Below are positions 5,737-32,158 of a DNA stretch of 46,305 nt, piece after piece. Each line of letters starts with the position of its first letter. The first letter of the stretch is position 1. The notes under the pieces were generated by a model. The model did no database searches and was not told the DNA's origin. It was given only the letters and a program-made list of their open reading frames with translations. Position numbers and translations under genes: made by a program. The stretch is from Candidatus Fermentithermobacillaceae bacterium (GTDB lineage Bacteria > Bacillota > Sulfobacillia > Fermentithermobacillales > Fermentithermobacillaceae): assembly GCA_012842425.1 (NCBI GenBank), contig DUSU01000095.1:1-46305 (forward strand), in the 5' to 3' direction.

Positions 5737-6492
5737 CTATCGCTTCGTAGAACAGCCCGACATAAAGCTCATGAGGACCGCGACCGCCGCTATGCCGGCC
5801 GTTTCGGCTTTCAGGATGTATGGGCCCAAAGAGACGGGTATGAAGCCCTTTGCGAGCACACGCTCTACTTCCGAGGCGTCGAGGCCGCCTTCCGGCCCTA
5901 TGATTATGGAGGCTTCGGTTTGCCCTTTGGTGGCCGAAGCGAGGTCGGCGGTGAGCCCTTCGTGCTCGTGAGCAAGCAGAGGAACGCCCGCTACACCCCG
6001 GTCAAGGACCTCTCCCAAGGTGGTTATCTCATGGATCTCGGGCAGCGACCCTCTCCCCGACTGCTGAGCGGCGGCTTTGGCAACCCGCGCCCAGCGGTCT
6101 CTCCTGGCAAGGGCTTTGTCCTCGCTAAGCCGCGGGATCGTCCTGTTGGTCACGATGGGGGTGAAAGACGTGACGCCCAACTCCGTGGCCTTTTCCACCA
6201 CCAAGTCCAGGCTCTGGTGCTTGAGGAGAGCCGCGTAGAGATGGATGCGTATGGCGGGAGGAGTTACGCGCATCCTGGCGGTTATGGAAGCCAGCAGTTT
6301 TCCCGGCTGAAGCGCTTCTACCACCGCGCTGTACTCGGTTTCACCCAGGACGGCACGGAAAGCCTCACCCGGCGAGAGCCGTTGGGCAAGCGCGTGCCGG
6401 TAGGCCTCACCCGTGAGGGCGATCTGGTTACCTAGAACCATTTGAGGTTCAACGAAGTAAAGGGGCGGGGTATGGCCTTGCTCCTTGTTCAC
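5737..6492 (-). CDS. rsmE: 16S rRNA m3U1498 methyltransferase RsmE
   Basis: LVVEKATELGVTSFTPIVTNRT, IIIGPEGGLDASEVE, SLGPYILKAETAGIAA. ATGA overlap with dnaJ. Confidence 0.93.
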   Translation of the reverse strand: MNKEQGHTPPLYFVEPQMVLGNQIALTGEAYRHALAQRLSPGEAFRAVLGETEYSAVVEALQPGKLLASITARMRVTPPAIRIHLYAALLKHQSLDLVVEKATELGVTSFTPIVTNRTIPRLSEDKALARRDRWARVAKAAAQQSGRGSLPEIHEITTLGEVLDRGVAGVPLLAHEHEGLTADLASATKGQTEASIIIGPEGGLDASEVERVLAKGFIPVSLGPYILKAETAGIAAVAVLMSFMSGCSTKR

Positions 6493-7652
6493 TTGGACCC
6501 TCCGTCAGCCCCTCTCAGTCTGTCGAAGAAAGACCTGGTGTCCGCGAACGTCTCGCCGTCGAATTTGCCCAGTTCCTTCAGTATCTCTTTCTCGCGGCCC
6601 GATAGCTTGGTGGGGACCCTTACGCTCACCCTGACGAGCATATCGCCTCTTCCCTTGGAACGCAGGCGCGGCATGCCTTTGCCCCGGAGCCTGAGGACCG
6701 CCCCGGGTTGTGTGCCCGCGGGCACATCCATCTCGATCTGTCCGTCAATACTCGGGACAACTACCGTCCCGCCGATCGCTGCCAGCGGAAAACTCACAAC
6801 CTGATCGAGGATGAGGTCGTCACCCTGGCGCTGGAACCGCTCGTGCGGGCGGACAAAGACAACAACGTACAGGTCGCCCGCAGGGCCACCCCTCACCCCG
6901 GCATTCCCCTGACCTTGGAGCCTTAGGCGCAGGCCGGAGTCGGCTCCGGGCGGCACCTTGACGGTAACGGTCCTGGTCCTGGACACGCTTCCCCTGCCGT
7001 CGCATTCCTTGCACGGCTTCTCGATGACCTTTCCTGTACCGCCGCACCTCGAACACGTTGTAACCGTCACAAAAGAGCCCAGCATGGTAGACCTGGACGT
7101 CCTCACCTGGCCCGTTCCACGGCAGGTGGGGCATGTCTTTATTTCGCTCCCGGGCTCGGCGCCACTCCCCTGGCACCTAGTGCACCTTTCCGTCCGGGGT
7201 ATCCTTATGTCTCGCTCAACGCCGGTGAAAGCCTCCTCGAGCGTGATGTCGATCTCCAGTTCAAGGTCGTCGCCCCTACGAGGTCCGGTGTCTACCTGCC
7301 TCCGGCCGCCGAAGATCTCCTCGAAGCCGCCGAACAGGTCTCCAAAGGGGAAGCCGCCAAAATCGGTGAAGACGCGCCCGAAAGGATCTCCCGTCTGCCC
7401 CCCTGAGGCTCCCCCGCCCGCGCCTGCGAAAGGACCGTCCGGATGACCGTAGGCATCGTAGTTGGAGCGCTTGGTCGGGTCTGAAAGCACCTCGTAGGCC
7501 TCGTTTATCTCCTTGAATCGAGCCTCGGCGTCCTTATCTCCGGGATTGGCGTCAGGATGGTGCTTCTTGGCGAGCTGCCTGAAAGCCCTCTTTATCTCAT
7601 CTTGGGAGGCGTCCTTGCTGACGCCCAATACCTCGTAGTAGTCCTTTTTCAA
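6489..7652 (-). CDS. dnaJ: Molecular chaperone DnaJ
   Basis: J-domain with intact HPD (KKHHPDANPG), G/F region, four CxxCxGxG zinc motifs. ATGA overlap with the upstream chaperonin gene. Confidence 0.97.
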   Translation of the reverse strand: MKKDYYEVLGVSKDASQDEIKRAFRQLAKKHHPDANPGDKDAEARFKEINEAYEVLSDPTKRSNYDAYGHPDGPFAGAGGGASGGQTGDPFGRVFTDFGGFPFGDLFGGFEEIFGGRRQVDTGPRRGDDLELEIDITLEEAFTGVERDIRIPRTERCTRCQGSGAEPGSEIKTCPTCRGTGQVRTSRSTMLGSFVTVTTCSRCGGTGKVIEKPCKECDGRGSVSRTRTVTVKVPPGADSGLRLRLQGQGNAGVRGGPAGDLYVVVFVRPHERFQRQGDDLILDQVVSFPLAAIGGTVVVPSIDGQIEMDVPAGTQPGAVLRLRGKGMPRLRSKGRGDMLVRVSVRVPTKLSGREKEILKELGKFDGETFADTRSFFDRLRGADGGSK

Positions 7653-9229
7653 AAGTCCATATCCTCCGCCGGCTTACCTTCAGACGAGCCTTGTGCCTCG
7701 TCTTTCTTCTTGATGATCGTGTCAATTCTAAGTATGGCGCAGGCGATCTCCAGCGCAGCTTTGAGCGCGTGGGTCTTAACCGGCGCCGGGTCGATTACCC
7801 CCATGGCTACCATGTCGACTATCTCGCCCGTATCACAGTCCACCGCGAGGCGGTCGCTGTTTTCTTCGGTCTGCCTGGCCATCGCGTCCCCTACCTTCTC
7901 AAGGGGGTTGAACCCCGCGTTCGAGACGATCTGGGCCATCGGGCGCTTCAGGGCCTCGACGACGCAGAGTAGGCCGTACGCCTGCATACCCTTCTGGCTT
8001 AGCCTCATCTTCTCAACTTCCCGGGCGCACGCCAGCTCAATCGCCCCGCCGCCGGCCACGACTCCGCCCTTCACGGCAGCCTGGACCGAGGACGCTGCGT
8101 CGGTGCAGATCCGCTCCCGCTCACCCCTTACTTCCCCGGTGGTGGCGCCCACGAGGATAGTGGCCATGGGTTTGCCCTTTCCGCCCAGTATACGGATGTT
8201 CTCAAGTTTCTGGTCCTCGTAAACCTTCTCCGCCCCACCGAGGTACTTGGCAAGTTCCTCGGGAGGCTTCTTGAGGCCGGTCCTCTTAACCACGCGGGCT
8301 CCGGTGTGTTCGCAGACTTTCCTTAATTCGCTTGACGATACCCGCGTAACCACCATGACTCCCGCGTCGGTCAAGATCTCCTCGGCTATGTCTGAGATGC
8401 CCTTGTCGACGACTATAAACTTCACACCCAGTTTGACCACTTTATCGAGGTTGGCTTTGAACTCTTCCTGAAGCTCCAGATACCGCTGGAAGCCTACTTC
8501 AGTAGAAAGGGCTTCCTCCTCGACCTCTTCGGGCTCCAGGGCATCGTCGACTACAAGGATCTTGGGATCGTCCAGCGATTCGGGCATCTCCTCGTTGAGC
8601 CGTTCCTTATCGACGATGATGCCCGCGAAAACCTCGTTCTCGGCGCCTTCTTTGGCAACTATCGTCTCCGAAAGCTTAAACCGCGGGTCCAGGAGTTTCT
8701 CCTTGCCGACCATCTTGGCCGCGGCCACGACAAGCTCGGCGATATCCTTGTTGTCACGGCCGGCGACCAGCGCGACTTTAAGCAGCATAGGGTCGTCAAC
8801 ATCGTCTATCTTGATGGCCTTCTCGGCCACAATATCCATCGCGCGCTGCACGCCCGCGCGGACTCCGTCAATTATCCGGGTCACCGGGACGCCTCTGGCA
8901 GCCTGGTTTACTCCTTCCGAAAGGAGCGCCCCTGCCATTATGGTGGCCGTGGTCGTGCCGTCACCGACTTCGTCTTCCTGGGCTCTCGCGGTGTTGATCA
9001 CCATTTTGGCCGCAGGATGGTTCACATCCATCTTCGTGAGGATGGTCATACCGTCGTTGGTTATGACGACCTCGCCGAACCTGTCGACCAAGAGAGTATC
9101 CAGGCCTTTGGGACCGATCGTGCCCTCCACCGCGGAAGCGATGGCCCGCACCGCACTGGCATTCGTGAAGAGAGCTGCGAGTTTCTCGTTGATCTCGGAA
9201 GCATCTGCCGCTTGGCCCTTCAAAGTCAA
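7649..9229 (-). CDS. Archaeal-type (thermosome-like Group II/III) chaperonin
   Basis: [84 protein letters not shown]. An insertion between about 'VDDALEPEEVEEEALSTEVGFQRYLELQEEFKANL' resembles the group II helical protrusion (built-in lid). Clearly distinct from the GroEL at 30112-31734. Confidence 0.92.
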   Translation of the reverse strand: MTLKGQAADASEINEKLAALFTNASAVRAIASAVEGTIGPKGLDTLLVDRFGEVVITNDGMTILTKMDVNHPAAKMVINTARAQEDEVGDGTTTATIMAGALLSEGVNQAARGVPVTRIIDGVRAGVQRAMDIVAEKAIKIDDVDDPMLLKVALVAGRDNKDIAELVVAAAKMVGKEKLLDPRFKLSETIVAKEGAENEVFAGIIVDKERLNEEMPESLDDPKILVVDDALEPEEVEEEALSTEVGFQRYLELQEEFKANLDKVVKLGVKFIVVDKGISDIAEEILTDAGVMVVTRVSSSELRKVCEHTGARVVKRTGLKKPPEELAKYLGGAEKVYEDQKLENIRILGGKGKPMATILVGATTGEVRGERERICTDAASSVQAAVKGGVVAGGGAIELACAREVEKMRLSQKGMQAYGLLCVVEALKRPMAQIVSNAGFNPLEKVGDAMARQTEENSDRLAVDCDTGEIVDMVAMGVIDPAPVKTHALKAALEIACAILRIDTIIKKKDEAQGSSEGKPAEDMDF

Positions 9230-9294
9230 TGTGGGTCCCTCCTGTGTCTTGCGAGAATCGGGTCCGGTTATCCGGCCACCCGGTGCCGTCCGGT

Positions 9295-10317
9295 CTACCT
9301 TCCTTTGGAGAAGTAGCCGGTCAGCTTATCTTCAAACATGCTGACAATCGCAACTGCCTTGGAGTAGTCCATCCGCTTGGGTCCCAATATGCCGATTTTC
9401 CCTTCGGTGCGGCCCGCGCTGAACGTACCGTAGACCATTGAAATATCCTTTATGGATTCGGATTCGTTCTCTGCTCCGATCCGAATTGTGGGGTTGGTCT
9501 CGTCGTCTGACTTGGATAGGAGTGTCTGGATCATCCCGTTGGTTTCGATCGCCGAGATGACCCCCTTGAGCCTCTCAACATCCCTGAACTCAGGCAGGTT
9601 CAAGAGGTTCACTGGGCTTCCAACATAGAGCCTCTCGCTATCCGATAGAGTGACGCTCTTTAGGAACTCGACCACCTGCTCGACTATCATGGCGTACCTC
9701 GACGTTTCTTCCTTGAGAAGGCTGTACGCCTTGTCGGCAATCCGGTCCATGGTCACTCCGGTGAGGTTTCTGGACAGCGTCTCCGAGATCGCCCGGAGCT
9801 CCTCGTTGGATACTTCGCTCATTTCTATGAGGCACGTCTCGACAAAGCCGATGTCGGTTATGAGGACCAACAGGGCTTTGTCCGAAGACGCGGGCAAGAG
9901 GTGGATGCTCCTAAAGGTCACGGACTCGCAATCGGGCCCCAATACGAATCCTAGGTAGTTCGATGTTTCGGAAACAAGTCTCACGGCCTCCCGGAGAAAC
10001 GAGACAACATCCCGCATCTTGGTGCGGAAAAGCGCCTCAATAGCCCGGGACTCACCGGCGGTAAGCTTCTTCTTCGGCATCAGCTCATCAACGTAGAACC
10101 TGTATCCACGGTCGGACGGTACGCGTCCGGACGAAGTGTGGGGCTTATCGAGATAGCCTGTGTCCTCAAGGTCGGCCATCTCGTTTCTGATGGTCGCGGG
10201 GCTCACTCCGAGCCGGTACCGCTTTGCGATGACGCGCGAGCCAACCGGCAGGCCCGTCTCAATGTATTCCTCGACAACCGCTCTCAGCACGCGAGCCTTT
10301 CTATCGTCGAGTGTCAC
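9295..10317 (-). CDS. hrcA: Heat-inducible transcription repressor HrcA
   Basis: VLRAVVEEYIETGLPVGSRVIAKRYRLGVSPATIRNEMADLEDTGYLDKPHTSSGRVPSDRGYRFYVD. GTG start at 10317 with AAAGGAGG SD; the listed start at 10341 lies inside the CIRCE element. Confidence 0.95.
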   Translation of the reverse strand: MTLDDRKARVLRAVVEEYIETGLPVGSRVIAKRYRLGVSPATIRNEMADLEDTGYLDKPHTSSGRVPSDRGYRFYVDELMPKKKLTAGESRAIEALFRTKMRDVVSFLREAVRLVSETSNYLGFVLGPDCESVTFRSIHLLPASSDKALLVLITDIGFVETCLIEMSEVSNEELRAISETLSRNLTGVTMDRIADKAYSLLKEETSRYAMIVEQVVEFLKSVTLSDSERLYVGSPVNLLNLPEFRDVERLKGVISAIETNGMIQTLLSKSDDETNPTIRIGAENESESIKDISMVYGTFSAGRTEGKIGILGPKRMDYSKAVAIVSMFEDKLTGYFSKGR

Positions 10318-10334
10318 GTCCCGCCTCTCCTCCT

Positions 10335-10361
10335 TTAGCACTCTCTCCGTGAGAGTGCTAA
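10335..10361 (-). promoter_or_regulatory. CIRCE operator of the hrcA-chaperonin-dnaJ operon
   Basis: TTAGCACTC-N9-GAGTGCTAA, exact match to the CIRCE consensus, just upstream of the hrcA SD. Confidence 0.97.
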
Positions 10362-10370
10362 CCTAGATGA

Positions 10371-10400
10371 AACATAGCACCGGACAAGGAGAGGTGTCAA
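10371..10400 (-). promoter_or_regulatory. Sigma-A-type promoter TTGACA-N18-TATGTT upstream of the hrcA CIRCE
   Basis: Minus-strand TTGACACCTCTCCTTGTCCGGTGCTATGTT, immediately upstream of CIRCE. Confidence 0.75.
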
Positions 10401-10418: not shown

Positions 10419-11540
10419 CTAGGGGACCGGAGGCGCGGAGGGCAGCATAAGTGAGGCAAGGGCCCAGGCCAGCGCCTGAACTGTATTCTCGCACTCTTCC
10501 ATCGTGTTCCCGACGCCCCCACACTCCACAAGGATGGCGTTGGGCGAGTACTTCTGGTTGTAGACCGCCGACTCGTAGAGGATACCTCTTGAGATGCCCG
10601 GATAGGCTTCTTCCAGCTTGTCGCTTAGTTTGCGGCTGACTTCGTAGTTCTTTACCCAATTAGGGTTGTTGGTGCCTACCACAAAGAGTATCCGGGCATA
10701 GGACTTCCCGCGGATCGTGACGGCGGTGATGTTCCTGGGCTGGCTGTCACGGTGGAGATCGATTAGATAGGTGCAAGTAGGGTACTTGTCAAGGATTGCC
10801 TTTACCGTCTGCTCCGAACGGTAGTATGCGCCCACCCGGGTCTCGGAGTCGTGGACAGTCCTGGAATGGAGCACGGGGATCCTGTAGCGGGTCTCCAGTT
10901 CGGCAGCCAGCATCTCGCCGATTTTCACAACGGTCTTTGACATATTAGATGAAAAGGCTTCGGCGGCCTGGGTCTTGCCCAGCTCTGGCAAGTACGATTC
11001 GGTCGCGTGGGTATGGTATATGCCCACCAGCGGGCCGGTGGAAAGGGCCGCGGCAGCGGGAGTCACACCATCGCCCGGCGGGAGCGAGAACATCACGGGG
11101 GTGTATCCCCAGTCATCTTCGAGGTTTTTCGGATCTGTGACGATACCTGAAGCCTCCAGCGCCCGGCTCTCCAGGAGAAAACCCGGAAATCCTGCGAAGA
11201 CCAGGTCTCTAACCGACGTAGGCGTGAAACCCATGAAATAACCGGCGATCCTCAAGGAGAGGGGTACCTCGGGCGTGTCATGCCTTCCTGCTTCGGCGTA
11301 CCTGAGCATGGGGAAACTGAGTCTCAAGACTTCCTTGGCCAGGTCGTCCTTGCTCCACAAGAAGTCGAAGACCGATGCCGTCCGGAGTTCCGGGTCCATC
11401 TCGCCTCCGGATCCGCTGAACGCAGGAAGCGCCGGGCTCACCTTGACCGATAAAGAAAAGACGAGCAGAAGGATGATGGAGAGCCCTTCGACGATAAGCA
11501 GCCGGACCTTTTGATTCCCTTTGGCGCCTACTCTCCTCAC
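10419..11540 (-). CDS. spoIIP: Stage II sporulation protein P
   Basis: GIYHTHATESYLPELG, YLIDLHRDSQPRN, VECGGVGNTMEECENT (SpoIIP amidase motifs); N-terminal TM. Confidence 0.9.
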   Translation of the reverse strand: MRRVGAKGNQKVRLLIVEGLSIILLLVFSLSVKVSPALPAFSGSGGEMDPELRTASVFDFLWSKDDLAKEVLRLSFPMLRYAEAGRHDTPEVPLSLRIAGYFMGFTPTSVRDLVFAGFPGFLLESRALEASGIVTDPKNLEDDWGYTPVMFSLPPGDGVTPAAAALSTGPLVGIYHTHATESYLPELGKTQAAEAFSSNMSKTVVKIGEMLAAELETRYRIPVLHSRTVHDSETRVGAYYRSEQTVKAILDKYPTCTYLIDLHRDSQPRNITAVTIRGKSYARILFVVGTNNPNWVKNYEVSRKLSDKLEEAYPGISRGILYESAVYNQKYSPNAILVECGGVGNTMEECENTVQALAWALASLMLPSAPPVP

Positions 11541-30111: not shown

Positions 30112-31734
30112 TTAATAATCCATATCCGGGCTAGGCGGATACGGCGGGTTCTTCTCCTTCTCGGGCTTCTCGGCGATCAGGCAGTCGGTGGTGAGCACCA
30201 TGGACGCCACCGAAGCGGCGTTCTCCAGAGCGGAGCGGACGACCTTCAGGGGGTCGACAACGCCGTTCTTCGCGAGGTCAATGAACTCACCAGAGACGAC
30301 CTCAAGGCCCCAGCCCTTCTTGCCGGAAGCTTTCACCTTCTCGACAACAACGGAACCCTCAAGACCGGCGTTGTTCGCGATCTGCTTGAGCGGCTCCTCA
30401 AGGGCTCTCTTCACGATCTGAGCGCCCACCTTCTCGTCGCCGGTGAGGTCGAGCTCGTCGATAACGGGAGCGACGTTGATAAAGATGGTGCCGCCGCCAG
30501 GGATCATGCCTTCCTCAACACCGGCCCTTGTGGCCGAGAGGGCGTCCTCAAAGCGGTGCTTCTTCTCTTTGAGCTCGGTCTCGGAAGCGGCGCCGACCTT
30601 GATGACGGCGACTCCGCCGGCAAGCTTGGCGAGCCTTTCCTGGAGCTTCTCACGGTCGTAATCGGAATCGGTTTCTTCGAGCTCCTTGCGGATCTGGTTA
30701 ATGCGGGCCTCGATATCCTCCTTGGAGCCCTTACCTTCGACGATAGTGGTCTTCTCCTTGGCGACCTTGACCCTGGCGCACTGGCCAAGCATATCGAGCT
30801 CTACGTTCTCCAGCTTCACGCCGAGGTCTTCCGAGATGAACCGTCCGCCGGTCAGGACCGCGATGTCGCCCAGCATGGCCTTGCGCCTGTCTCCGAATCC
30901 GGGAGCCTTGACTGCGCAGACACTCAAAGTGCCGCGGATCTTGTTAAGGACGAGAGTTGCAAGCGCCTCACCCTCAAGGTCCTCGGCGATAATCAAGAGA
31001 GGCCTGCCGCTCCTCGCGACCTTCTCAAGAAGGGGCAGGATGTCGGCGACCGCAGAGATCTTCTTCTCGTAGATGAGGATGTAGGGGTCGTTGAGCTCGG
31101 CCACCATGGCCTCGGTATTGGTGACAAAATACCCCGAGAGGTAGCCGCGGTCGAACTCCATACCTTCAACAACTTCAACGGTGGTAGCGGTTCCCTTGGA
31201 CTCCTCGATGGTAATGACTCCGTCCTTACCCACCTTATCCATGGCATCGGCTATGAGGCTGCCGATTTCCTTGTCGTTTCCTGCGTTGGCGGCTATGTTC
31301 GCAATGTCTTCCTTGCTCTCGACCGGGATGGCCATCTTTTTCATCTCTTCGACGGCCCTCGCGACAGCTTTGTCAATTCCCCTCTTCAGGAAGATGGGGT
31401 TTGCGCCTGCTGCTACGTTCTTCATGCCTTCGCGGACGATAGCATGGGCGAGAACAGTCGCGGTGGTGGTCCCGTCTCCTGCCACATCGTTGGTCTTGCT
31501 GGCGACCTCGCGGCAGAGCTGGGCACCCATATTTTCATAAGGATCAGAAAGCTCGATTTCCTTGGCGACGGTCACGCCGTCTTTGGTGATTACCGGAGAC
31601 CCGAACTTGCGGTCCAGGACGACGTTGCGGCCCTTGGGACCCAGGGTTACTTTCACCGCGTTGGCCACGGCGGCGACTCCGGCCTCGAGGGCTTTACGCG
31701 CCTCTACATCGTACGCAATCATCTTTGCGGGCAC
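30112..31734 (-). CDS. groEL: Group I chaperonin GroEL
   Basis: [62 protein letters not shown]-terminus [13 protein letters not shown]. Confidence 0.98.
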
Positions 31735-31789: not shown

Positions 31790-32083
31790 CTAGTCTTTCT
31801 GCCTGATGGCGAGAATCTCGCTTTCGCGGATGATAAGATACTCCTCGCCATCGATCTTTATCTCGCTGCCGCTGTACTTGGAGTAGACCACTCTGTCGCC
31901 AACCTTGACTTCGAGAGGAATCTTGGTCCCGTTGTCAAGGATCCGGCCGGTGCCGACGGCGATGACTTCGCCCTCTTGCGGCTTGTCTTTGGCGGTATCG
32001 GGAAGGACGATACCTCCCTTGGTCTTCTCTTCGGCCTGGATCGGCTTTACGACCACGCGGTCAGCTAGAGGCTTGAGCACCAC
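31790..32083 (-). CDS. groES: Co-chaperonin GroES
   Basis: [44 protein letters not shown]. Confidence 0.98.
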
Positions 32084-32131: not shown

Positions 32132-32158
32132 TTAGCACTCAAGAGGTGCGAGTGCTAA
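32132..32158 (-). promoter_or_regulatory. CIRCE operator of groES-groEL
   Basis: TTAGCACTC-AAGAGGTGC-GAGTGCTAA, exact CIRCE consensus. Confidence 0.97.

Follow-up and report, generated by a model that had tools for sequence, protein, structure and literature searches.

A hrcA-cpn3-dnaJ operon lacking grpE and dnaK suggests a split heat-shock system in Fermentithermobacillaceae and related Bacillota

In this study, we analyzed computationally the heat-shock chaperone genes in a 46,305-nucleotide stretch of the draft genome of a Candidatus Fermentithermobacillaceae bacterium (GenBank assembly GCA_012842425.1, contig DUSU01000095.1; this whole stretch is called the window below), which belongs to a group of uncultured, heat-loving bacteria. 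The subject is an operon on the minus strand in which a promoter, a CIRCE (controlling inverted repeat of chaperone expression) operator, hrcA, an archaeal-like chaperonin gene (cpn3), dnaJ and rsmE follow one another, and in which neither grpE nor dnaK was found between hrcA and dnaJ. The promoter (10371..10400, minus strand) is of the sigma-70 type, TTGACA-N18-TATGTT with a TG ahead of the second hexamer, and shows 10 of 12 consensus matches, with 0.1 such sites expected in the consensus scan. CIRCE, the HrcA binding site, lies 9 bp downstream (10335..10361) and is a perfect inverted repeat, TTAGCACTC-N9-GAGTGCTAA, with 0 mismatches and 0 expected in shuffles. The heat-inducible repressor gene hrcA occupies 9295..10317 (minus strand; TIGR00331, 318 bits with a cut-off of 197, E 8e-95); the mechanically called open reading frame (ORF) runs from 9295 to 10341 and starts inside CIRCE, and the GTG at 10317, which has an AGGAGG, appears to be the likelier start than 10341. 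Next come cpn3 (7649..9229, minus strand), which encodes 526 amino acids, and dnaJ (6489..7652, minus strand; TIGR02349, 442 bits with a cut-off of 377, E 2e-132), which encodes a full type-I protein with a J domain (PF00226), a zinc domain (PF00684), a C-terminal domain (PF01556) and the HPD motif within KKHHPDANPGD. The last gene of the run is an rsmE-family 16S rRNA methyltransferase gene (5737..6492, minus strand; TIGR00046, 142 bits with a cut-off of 41). Both dnaJ and rsmE (GTGA) and cpn3 and dnaJ (7649..7652, minus strand) overlap by 4 nt; the latter overlap, TTGA, combines a TTG start with a TGA stop and points to translational coupling from cpn3 to dnaJ. Co-transcription and heat induction of hrcA-cpn3-dnaJ-rsmE appear probable. 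The initial annotation, made from the letters alone, had described this gene order and the intact HPD and zinc motifs of DnaJ, and the profile matches and the perfect CIRCE agreed with it, its coordinates being right; it had placed the cpn3/dnaJ overlap correctly, only with the wrong sequence (ATGA).

Group III chaperonins are 16-mers that have a built-in lid and fold proteins in an ATP-dependent manner. Their prototype is Ch-CPN of Carboxydothermus hydrogenoformans (An et al. 2017, PMC5635000; citing Techtmann and Robb 2010). Judged by sequence features and not by operon context, the chaperonin of the window is a member of Group III, which supports the archaeal-like identity first proposed for it. 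The protein matched PF00118 with 386 bits; its best natural match in the PDB was Ch-CPN (5x9u, 515 bits), whereas the best thermosome reached 250 bits, and among NCBIfam models thermosomes were nearest, with scores under their cut-offs. The nucleotide-sensing loop is missing, which is a Group III trait by the published definition (PMC5635000); the loop region could be aligned free of gaps with Ch-CPN and with a 6-residue gap with thermosome alpha of T. acidophilum. The tree placed the protein deep within the bacterial Cpn3 sequences, branch lengths to GroEL and to thermosomes being 4.8 and 5.4; support in this topology was partly low, and long branches meet at the junction of Ch-CPN and Group II. 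An ordinary GroEL, the outcome that the initial annotation had named as speaking against its proposal, was ruled out by the NCBIfam scores, the PDB matches and the tree. The context of Group III genes, a position within an hsp70/dnaK operon, was not found in the window, where the flanking genes are hrcA and dnaJ, with no grpE or dnaK.

To place this arrangement among relatives, neighborhoods of hrcA and dnaJ were compared in a phylum sample of 399 genomes, about 127 of which had a cpn3 gene, and in a class sample of 154 genomes, 44 with cpn3; the genomes were mostly metagenome assemblies. The order hrcA-cpn3-grpE-dnaK-dnaJ proved to be standard in the phylum, with grpE, and also dnaK where the contig was long enough, directly behind cpn3 in all 117 loci examined outside the class. 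Within the class, the standard order was present in 6 of the 44 genomes and grpE-dnaK was missing from the operon in 36, while the contigs of the remaining 2 ended too early. Of the class loci, 44 of 45 had a CIRCE before hrcA, as did 132 of 132 other loci scanned. Since cpn3 already stands directly after hrcA in the standard order, grpE and dnaK left from behind cpn3 and were not replaced by it; the view of the initial annotation that the chaperonin occupies their position had to be given up accordingly. The gene order of the window recurred in at least 10 genomes of the order Fermentithermobacillales and in the closed chromosome CP062796 (G416, Ca. Fermentithermobacillus carboniphilus Bu02), and thus neither chance nor misassembly could account for it. 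In three genomes of the window's own family (G389, G411 and G412; L295, L294 and L296), the order was CIRCE-hrcA-dnaJ-rsmE and cpn3 was gone. Because of these losses, DnaJ appears to be the partner that hrcA has retained most consistently, whereas the chaperonin appears dispensable. Two further loci have an apparently interrupted cpn3, which in G423 (L022/L246) reads as two overlapping ORFs and in G402 (L018/L240) is broken by about 860 bases near its start; each may reflect a sequencing error, an insertion or a real disruption. At the former grpE-dnaK site of two genomes from one family (G530 and G532; L236 and L237), an ORF of about 300 amino acids with a nucleotidyltransferase-like motif (GSAATGLCVPGSDLD in L236) was observed.

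Genome-wide statements, absences included, were judged by profile search. Absence of dnaK and grpE from the window's own genome could be ruled out, as both lie on another contig (C11; L024:10268-13404), where a MerR-type HspR-like gene, with no CIRCE before it, is followed by dnaK (860 bits) and then grpE; the option that DnaK is encoded elsewhere, which the initial annotation had left beside a different partner for DnaJ, was the right one. In CP062796, the position of hrcA-cpn3-dnaJ is about 1.147 Mb and that of dnaK 1.786 Mb, which leaves about 0.64 Mb between them. Of the 29 non-canonical genomes checked, among them the window's own, 26 had an HspR-like gene just before dnaK, with grpE behind these dnaK genes wherever the contig reaches and a second dnaJ in some; of the canonical-operon genomes checked likewise, 0 of 2 had one. 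The HspR-linked DnaKs formed one clade (SH-aLRT (Shimodaira-Hasegawa-like approximate likelihood ratio test) support 100), separate from the DnaKs encoded in HrcA operons, even where the latter come from the same class. Additional DnaKs were seen in two genomes: G528 (L285) has a second DnaK of the HspR lineage with its own DnaJ, and G425 (L286) an extra partial DnaK, nearest to HrcA-operon DnaKs, that adjoins a GrpE and a J-domain fragment.

The DnaJ encoded in the window gave the single genome-wide J-domain match in its own genome, and the operon DnaJ was likewise the sole J-domain protein found in ten other non-canonical genomes, G416, G234, G415, G419, G408, G400, G401, G403, G402 and G422. 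The own genome and closed G416 have one DnaK each. Since no other J-domain protein was found in either of these two genomes, the simplest reading is that the operon DnaJ serves the distant DnaK, and a different partner is unlikely on the same grounds; a separate role of DnaJ with Cpn3 may exist.

Two CIRCE sites with up to three mismatches could be identified in the genome, one before hrcA and one, again perfect, before groES-groEL (32132..32158). The latter genes, groES (31790..32083, minus strand; an ORF recognized by its sequence and its position ahead of groEL) and groEL (30112..31734, minus strand; a PF00118 match, 742 bits to GroEL in the PDB), encode the ordinary Group I chaperonin system. 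The presence of HrcA, with one CIRCE before hrcA and another before groESL, supports a predicted HrcA control of both the cpn3-dnaJ operon and groESL, in agreement with the regulation suggested initially. A CIRCE was found before 0 of the 30 hspR-like genes scanned in the class, in contrast to its near-constant place before hrcA, which favors a split in control. Considering all these results, we regard it as highly probable that the window carries a split class-I heat-shock operon and that the Hsp70 machine is supplied by two differently controlled operons. An ancestral CIRCE-hrcA-cpn3-grpE-dnaK-dnaJ-rsmE operon would have lost grpE and dnaK; HrcA would now repress cpn3 and dnaJ in this operon and, by way of the other CIRCE, groESL, a separate hspR-like-dnaK-grpE locus would supply DnaK and GrpE, and DnaJ would stay the J-protein of DnaK, so that one Hsp70 machine is fed by two operons. 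Heat would free CIRCE of HrcA, releasing Cpn3, DnaJ and GroESL, and would separately release the HspR-like regulator, and with it DnaK and GrpE. Gene orders, CIRCE sites, the separate DnaK/GrpE locus, the single J-protein, conservation and the Group III identity are the observed part of this model.

Several observations weigh against the split-operon explanation or parts of it. Three non-canonical genomes (G401, G432 and G530) had no detected HspR-like gene before dnaK, which in G530 lies at a contig end. The regulator scored 78.3 bits with NF047375, its best family match, compared with an HspR cut-off of 105, and for this reason is named no more than HspR-like. No HAIR (HspR-associated inverted repeat) site with up to three mismatches was found before any of the 30 hspR-like genes, and a de novo count of dyads and 7-mers yielded promoter-like words and no convincing shared operator. 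Since no such operator was detected, it is by its position that the putative HspR-like repressor is suggested to control dnaK-grpE. In addition, the own genome is complete to 84%, and its missing part might encode a second J-protein. Finally, an approximately unbiased (AU) test did not reject a single clade of all class DnaKs (p 0.72), and acquisition of DnaK from outside the class is thus not demonstrated.

An outside origin of this kind is the added element in one version of the split-operon explanation, according to which a transferred hspR-dnaK-grpE(-dnaJ) operon made the dnaK-grpE of the HrcA operon redundant, so that they were deleted while cpn3 and dnaJ stayed. The separate clade of HspR-linked DnaKs favors such a transfer, as does the fact that some hspR operons carry a dnaJ, 6 of these 7 DnaJs grouping together (support 98); however, besides the AU result, relocation inside the class accounts for the same data, and we consider a transfer a serious candidate that falls somewhat short of an even chance. 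Far less probable is a functional replacement, in which the chaperonin would have taken the dnaK/grpE slot and would work with DnaJ instead of DnaK. The adjoining cpn3 and dnaJ with their 4-nt overlap and common promoter and CIRCE, and the intact DnaJ, would suit such a replacement, but DnaK and GrpE are encoded elsewhere in the genome, cpn3 follows hrcA even where grpE-dnaK remain, and the three family genomes that dropped cpn3 retain hrcA-dnaJ, all of which makes it very improbable. An assembly error or binning loss that removed grpE-dnaK from the contig, which the initial annotation had raised against its own reading, might be suspected in a 113-contig draft. Nevertheless, the same junction recurs in independent assemblies and in closed CP062796, where the two loci are also separate, the reading frames overlap cleanly and dnaK-grpE lies in another, conserved context; thus, the chance of such an error is negligible.

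The former dnaK site is not empty in all relatives. Between cpn3 and dnaJ, 13 of the 36 genomes without grpE-dnaK carry a short ORF, about 85-110 residues long, that contains only DnaK subdomain IIB (mini-IIB; L012, L014, L016, L018, L020, L022, L190, L192, L193, L196, L235 and other class loci); it is absent from the window, where these two genes overlap. The match of mini-IIB to E. coli DnaK was confined to about residues 231-311 (profile E 4e-18 to 1dkg). Its AlphaFold2 prediction had a pLDDT (predicted local distance difference test) of 88.3 and resembled DnaK lobe II with a TM (template modeling) score of 0.79-0.80, and the 50 PDB matches with E up to 0.001 were all Hsp70/DnaK structures or complexes; the predicted fold would be that of subdomain IIB. 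Of the residues conserved in nearly all of 158 DnaKs compared, R261, K270 and S274 were lost in 13 of 13 mini-IIBs and E267 in 11 of 13. In DnaK, E267, K270 and S274 contact the adenosine. On the basis of the limited match and the loss of most of these contacts, mini-IIB is a DnaK-derived domain and not a DnaK. In mini-IIB, the core of the fold is preserved, as is the greater part of hairpin 276-302, with P284 and H295 kept in 13 of 13 and G292, P293, L296, D297 and T301 in most; conservation of the hairpin over the helix was only weakly significant (one-sided p 0.04), for sites picked by their conservation in DnaK. In E. coli DnaK, this hairpin contacts GrpE, and the dissociation constant of DnaK-GrpE rises from 3.8 nM to 120 nM with Y285R and to 440 nM with deletion of 285-295, about 30- and 115-fold (PMC10825016). 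Mini-IIB was slightly nearer to HrcA-operon DnaK in 12 of 13 cases (mean about +3.6 bits), which is in keeping with a leftover of the lost dnaK and would also suit the displacement of that gene by a transferred operon. In general libraries it scored as no more than a weak Hsp70 match, and no mention of a free-standing subdomain IIB gene was found in the literature searched. An association between mini-IIB and a second DnaJ was considered and dropped, as no consistent pattern appeared across the genomes compared.

It could be argued that mini-IIB is a decaying dnaK remnant without function, given its place at the former dnaK position, its lack in 23 of the 36 genomes without grpE-dnaK and its divergence (20-48% identity across three less related pairs compared). 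However, the ratio of nonsynonymous to synonymous differences (pN/pS) in six close pairs was 0.16-0.43 in frame, as against 1.1-3.8 for the two alternative frames, 13 genomes from several families share the domain boundaries, a confident fold is predicted, and in G423 and G453 the ATG of mini-IIB overlaps the cpn3 stop as TGATG. These close pairs offer evidence of purifying selection, that is, of what is probably a real protein, and decay seems unlikely. A role as GrpE binder or GrpE competitor is a reasonable guess. We tentatively propose, as a possibility that could well fail, that mini-IIB is a new small protein whose gene was retained where dnaK once stood and is expressed together with cpn3 and dnaJ under HrcA control; the protein might bind GrpE (or Cpn3) and so connect the part of the chaperone system under HrcA with the DnaK-GrpE part under HspR.

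The gene immediately upstream of the hrcA operon (10419-11540) is spoIIP, for stage II sporulation protein P (TIGR02867), which suggests that the lineage may sporulate.

Class I heat shock in Bacillus is encoded by a hrcA-grpE-dnaK-dnaJ operon under CIRCE. The window shares with it CIRCE, an autoregulated hrcA, dnaJ at the end and a second CIRCE at groESL, and differs in the missing grpE-dnaK and in the chaperonin gene between hrcA and dnaJ. HspR-regulated dnaK operons are known in Actinobacteria and others; the second locus resembles them in its MerR-type HspR-like gene beside dnaK, in dnaK preceding grpE and, sometimes, in a dnaJ after these, whereas the regulator gene comes first, no HAIR was found, the score is under the cut-off and HrcA/CIRCE coexists. 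DnaK and GrpE on the one hand and their only J-protein on the other apparently answer to two different repressors. Compared with subdomain IIB of the DnaK nucleotide-binding domain (5oow, 1dkg), mini-IIB has the same fold and sequence, but it is a free-standing gene and has lost the ATP contacts; a conserved DnaK-fragment gene is thereby brought out that general databases show merely as a piece of Hsp70. With Group III chaperonins of the Ch-CPN type, the chaperonin of the window shares its sequence class, the lack of a nucleotide-sensing-loop insertion relative to thermosomes, the presence of GroEL beside it and a gene between hrcA and dnaJ. Group III genes have been described within the dnaK operon, with one exception, and cooperation with DnaK has been suggested (PMC5635000; 2017 review PMC5220055), a proposal that rests largely on the common operon. 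In contrast, grpE and dnaK are gone from the cpn3 operon across a whole set of lineages of this class, which make up a large group of exceptions to this pattern: they cut the link between cpn3 and dnaK yet keep cpn3 and dnaJ under HrcA, some of them having then lost cpn3, and the supposed link between Group III chaperonins and DnaK becomes directly testable by comparison.

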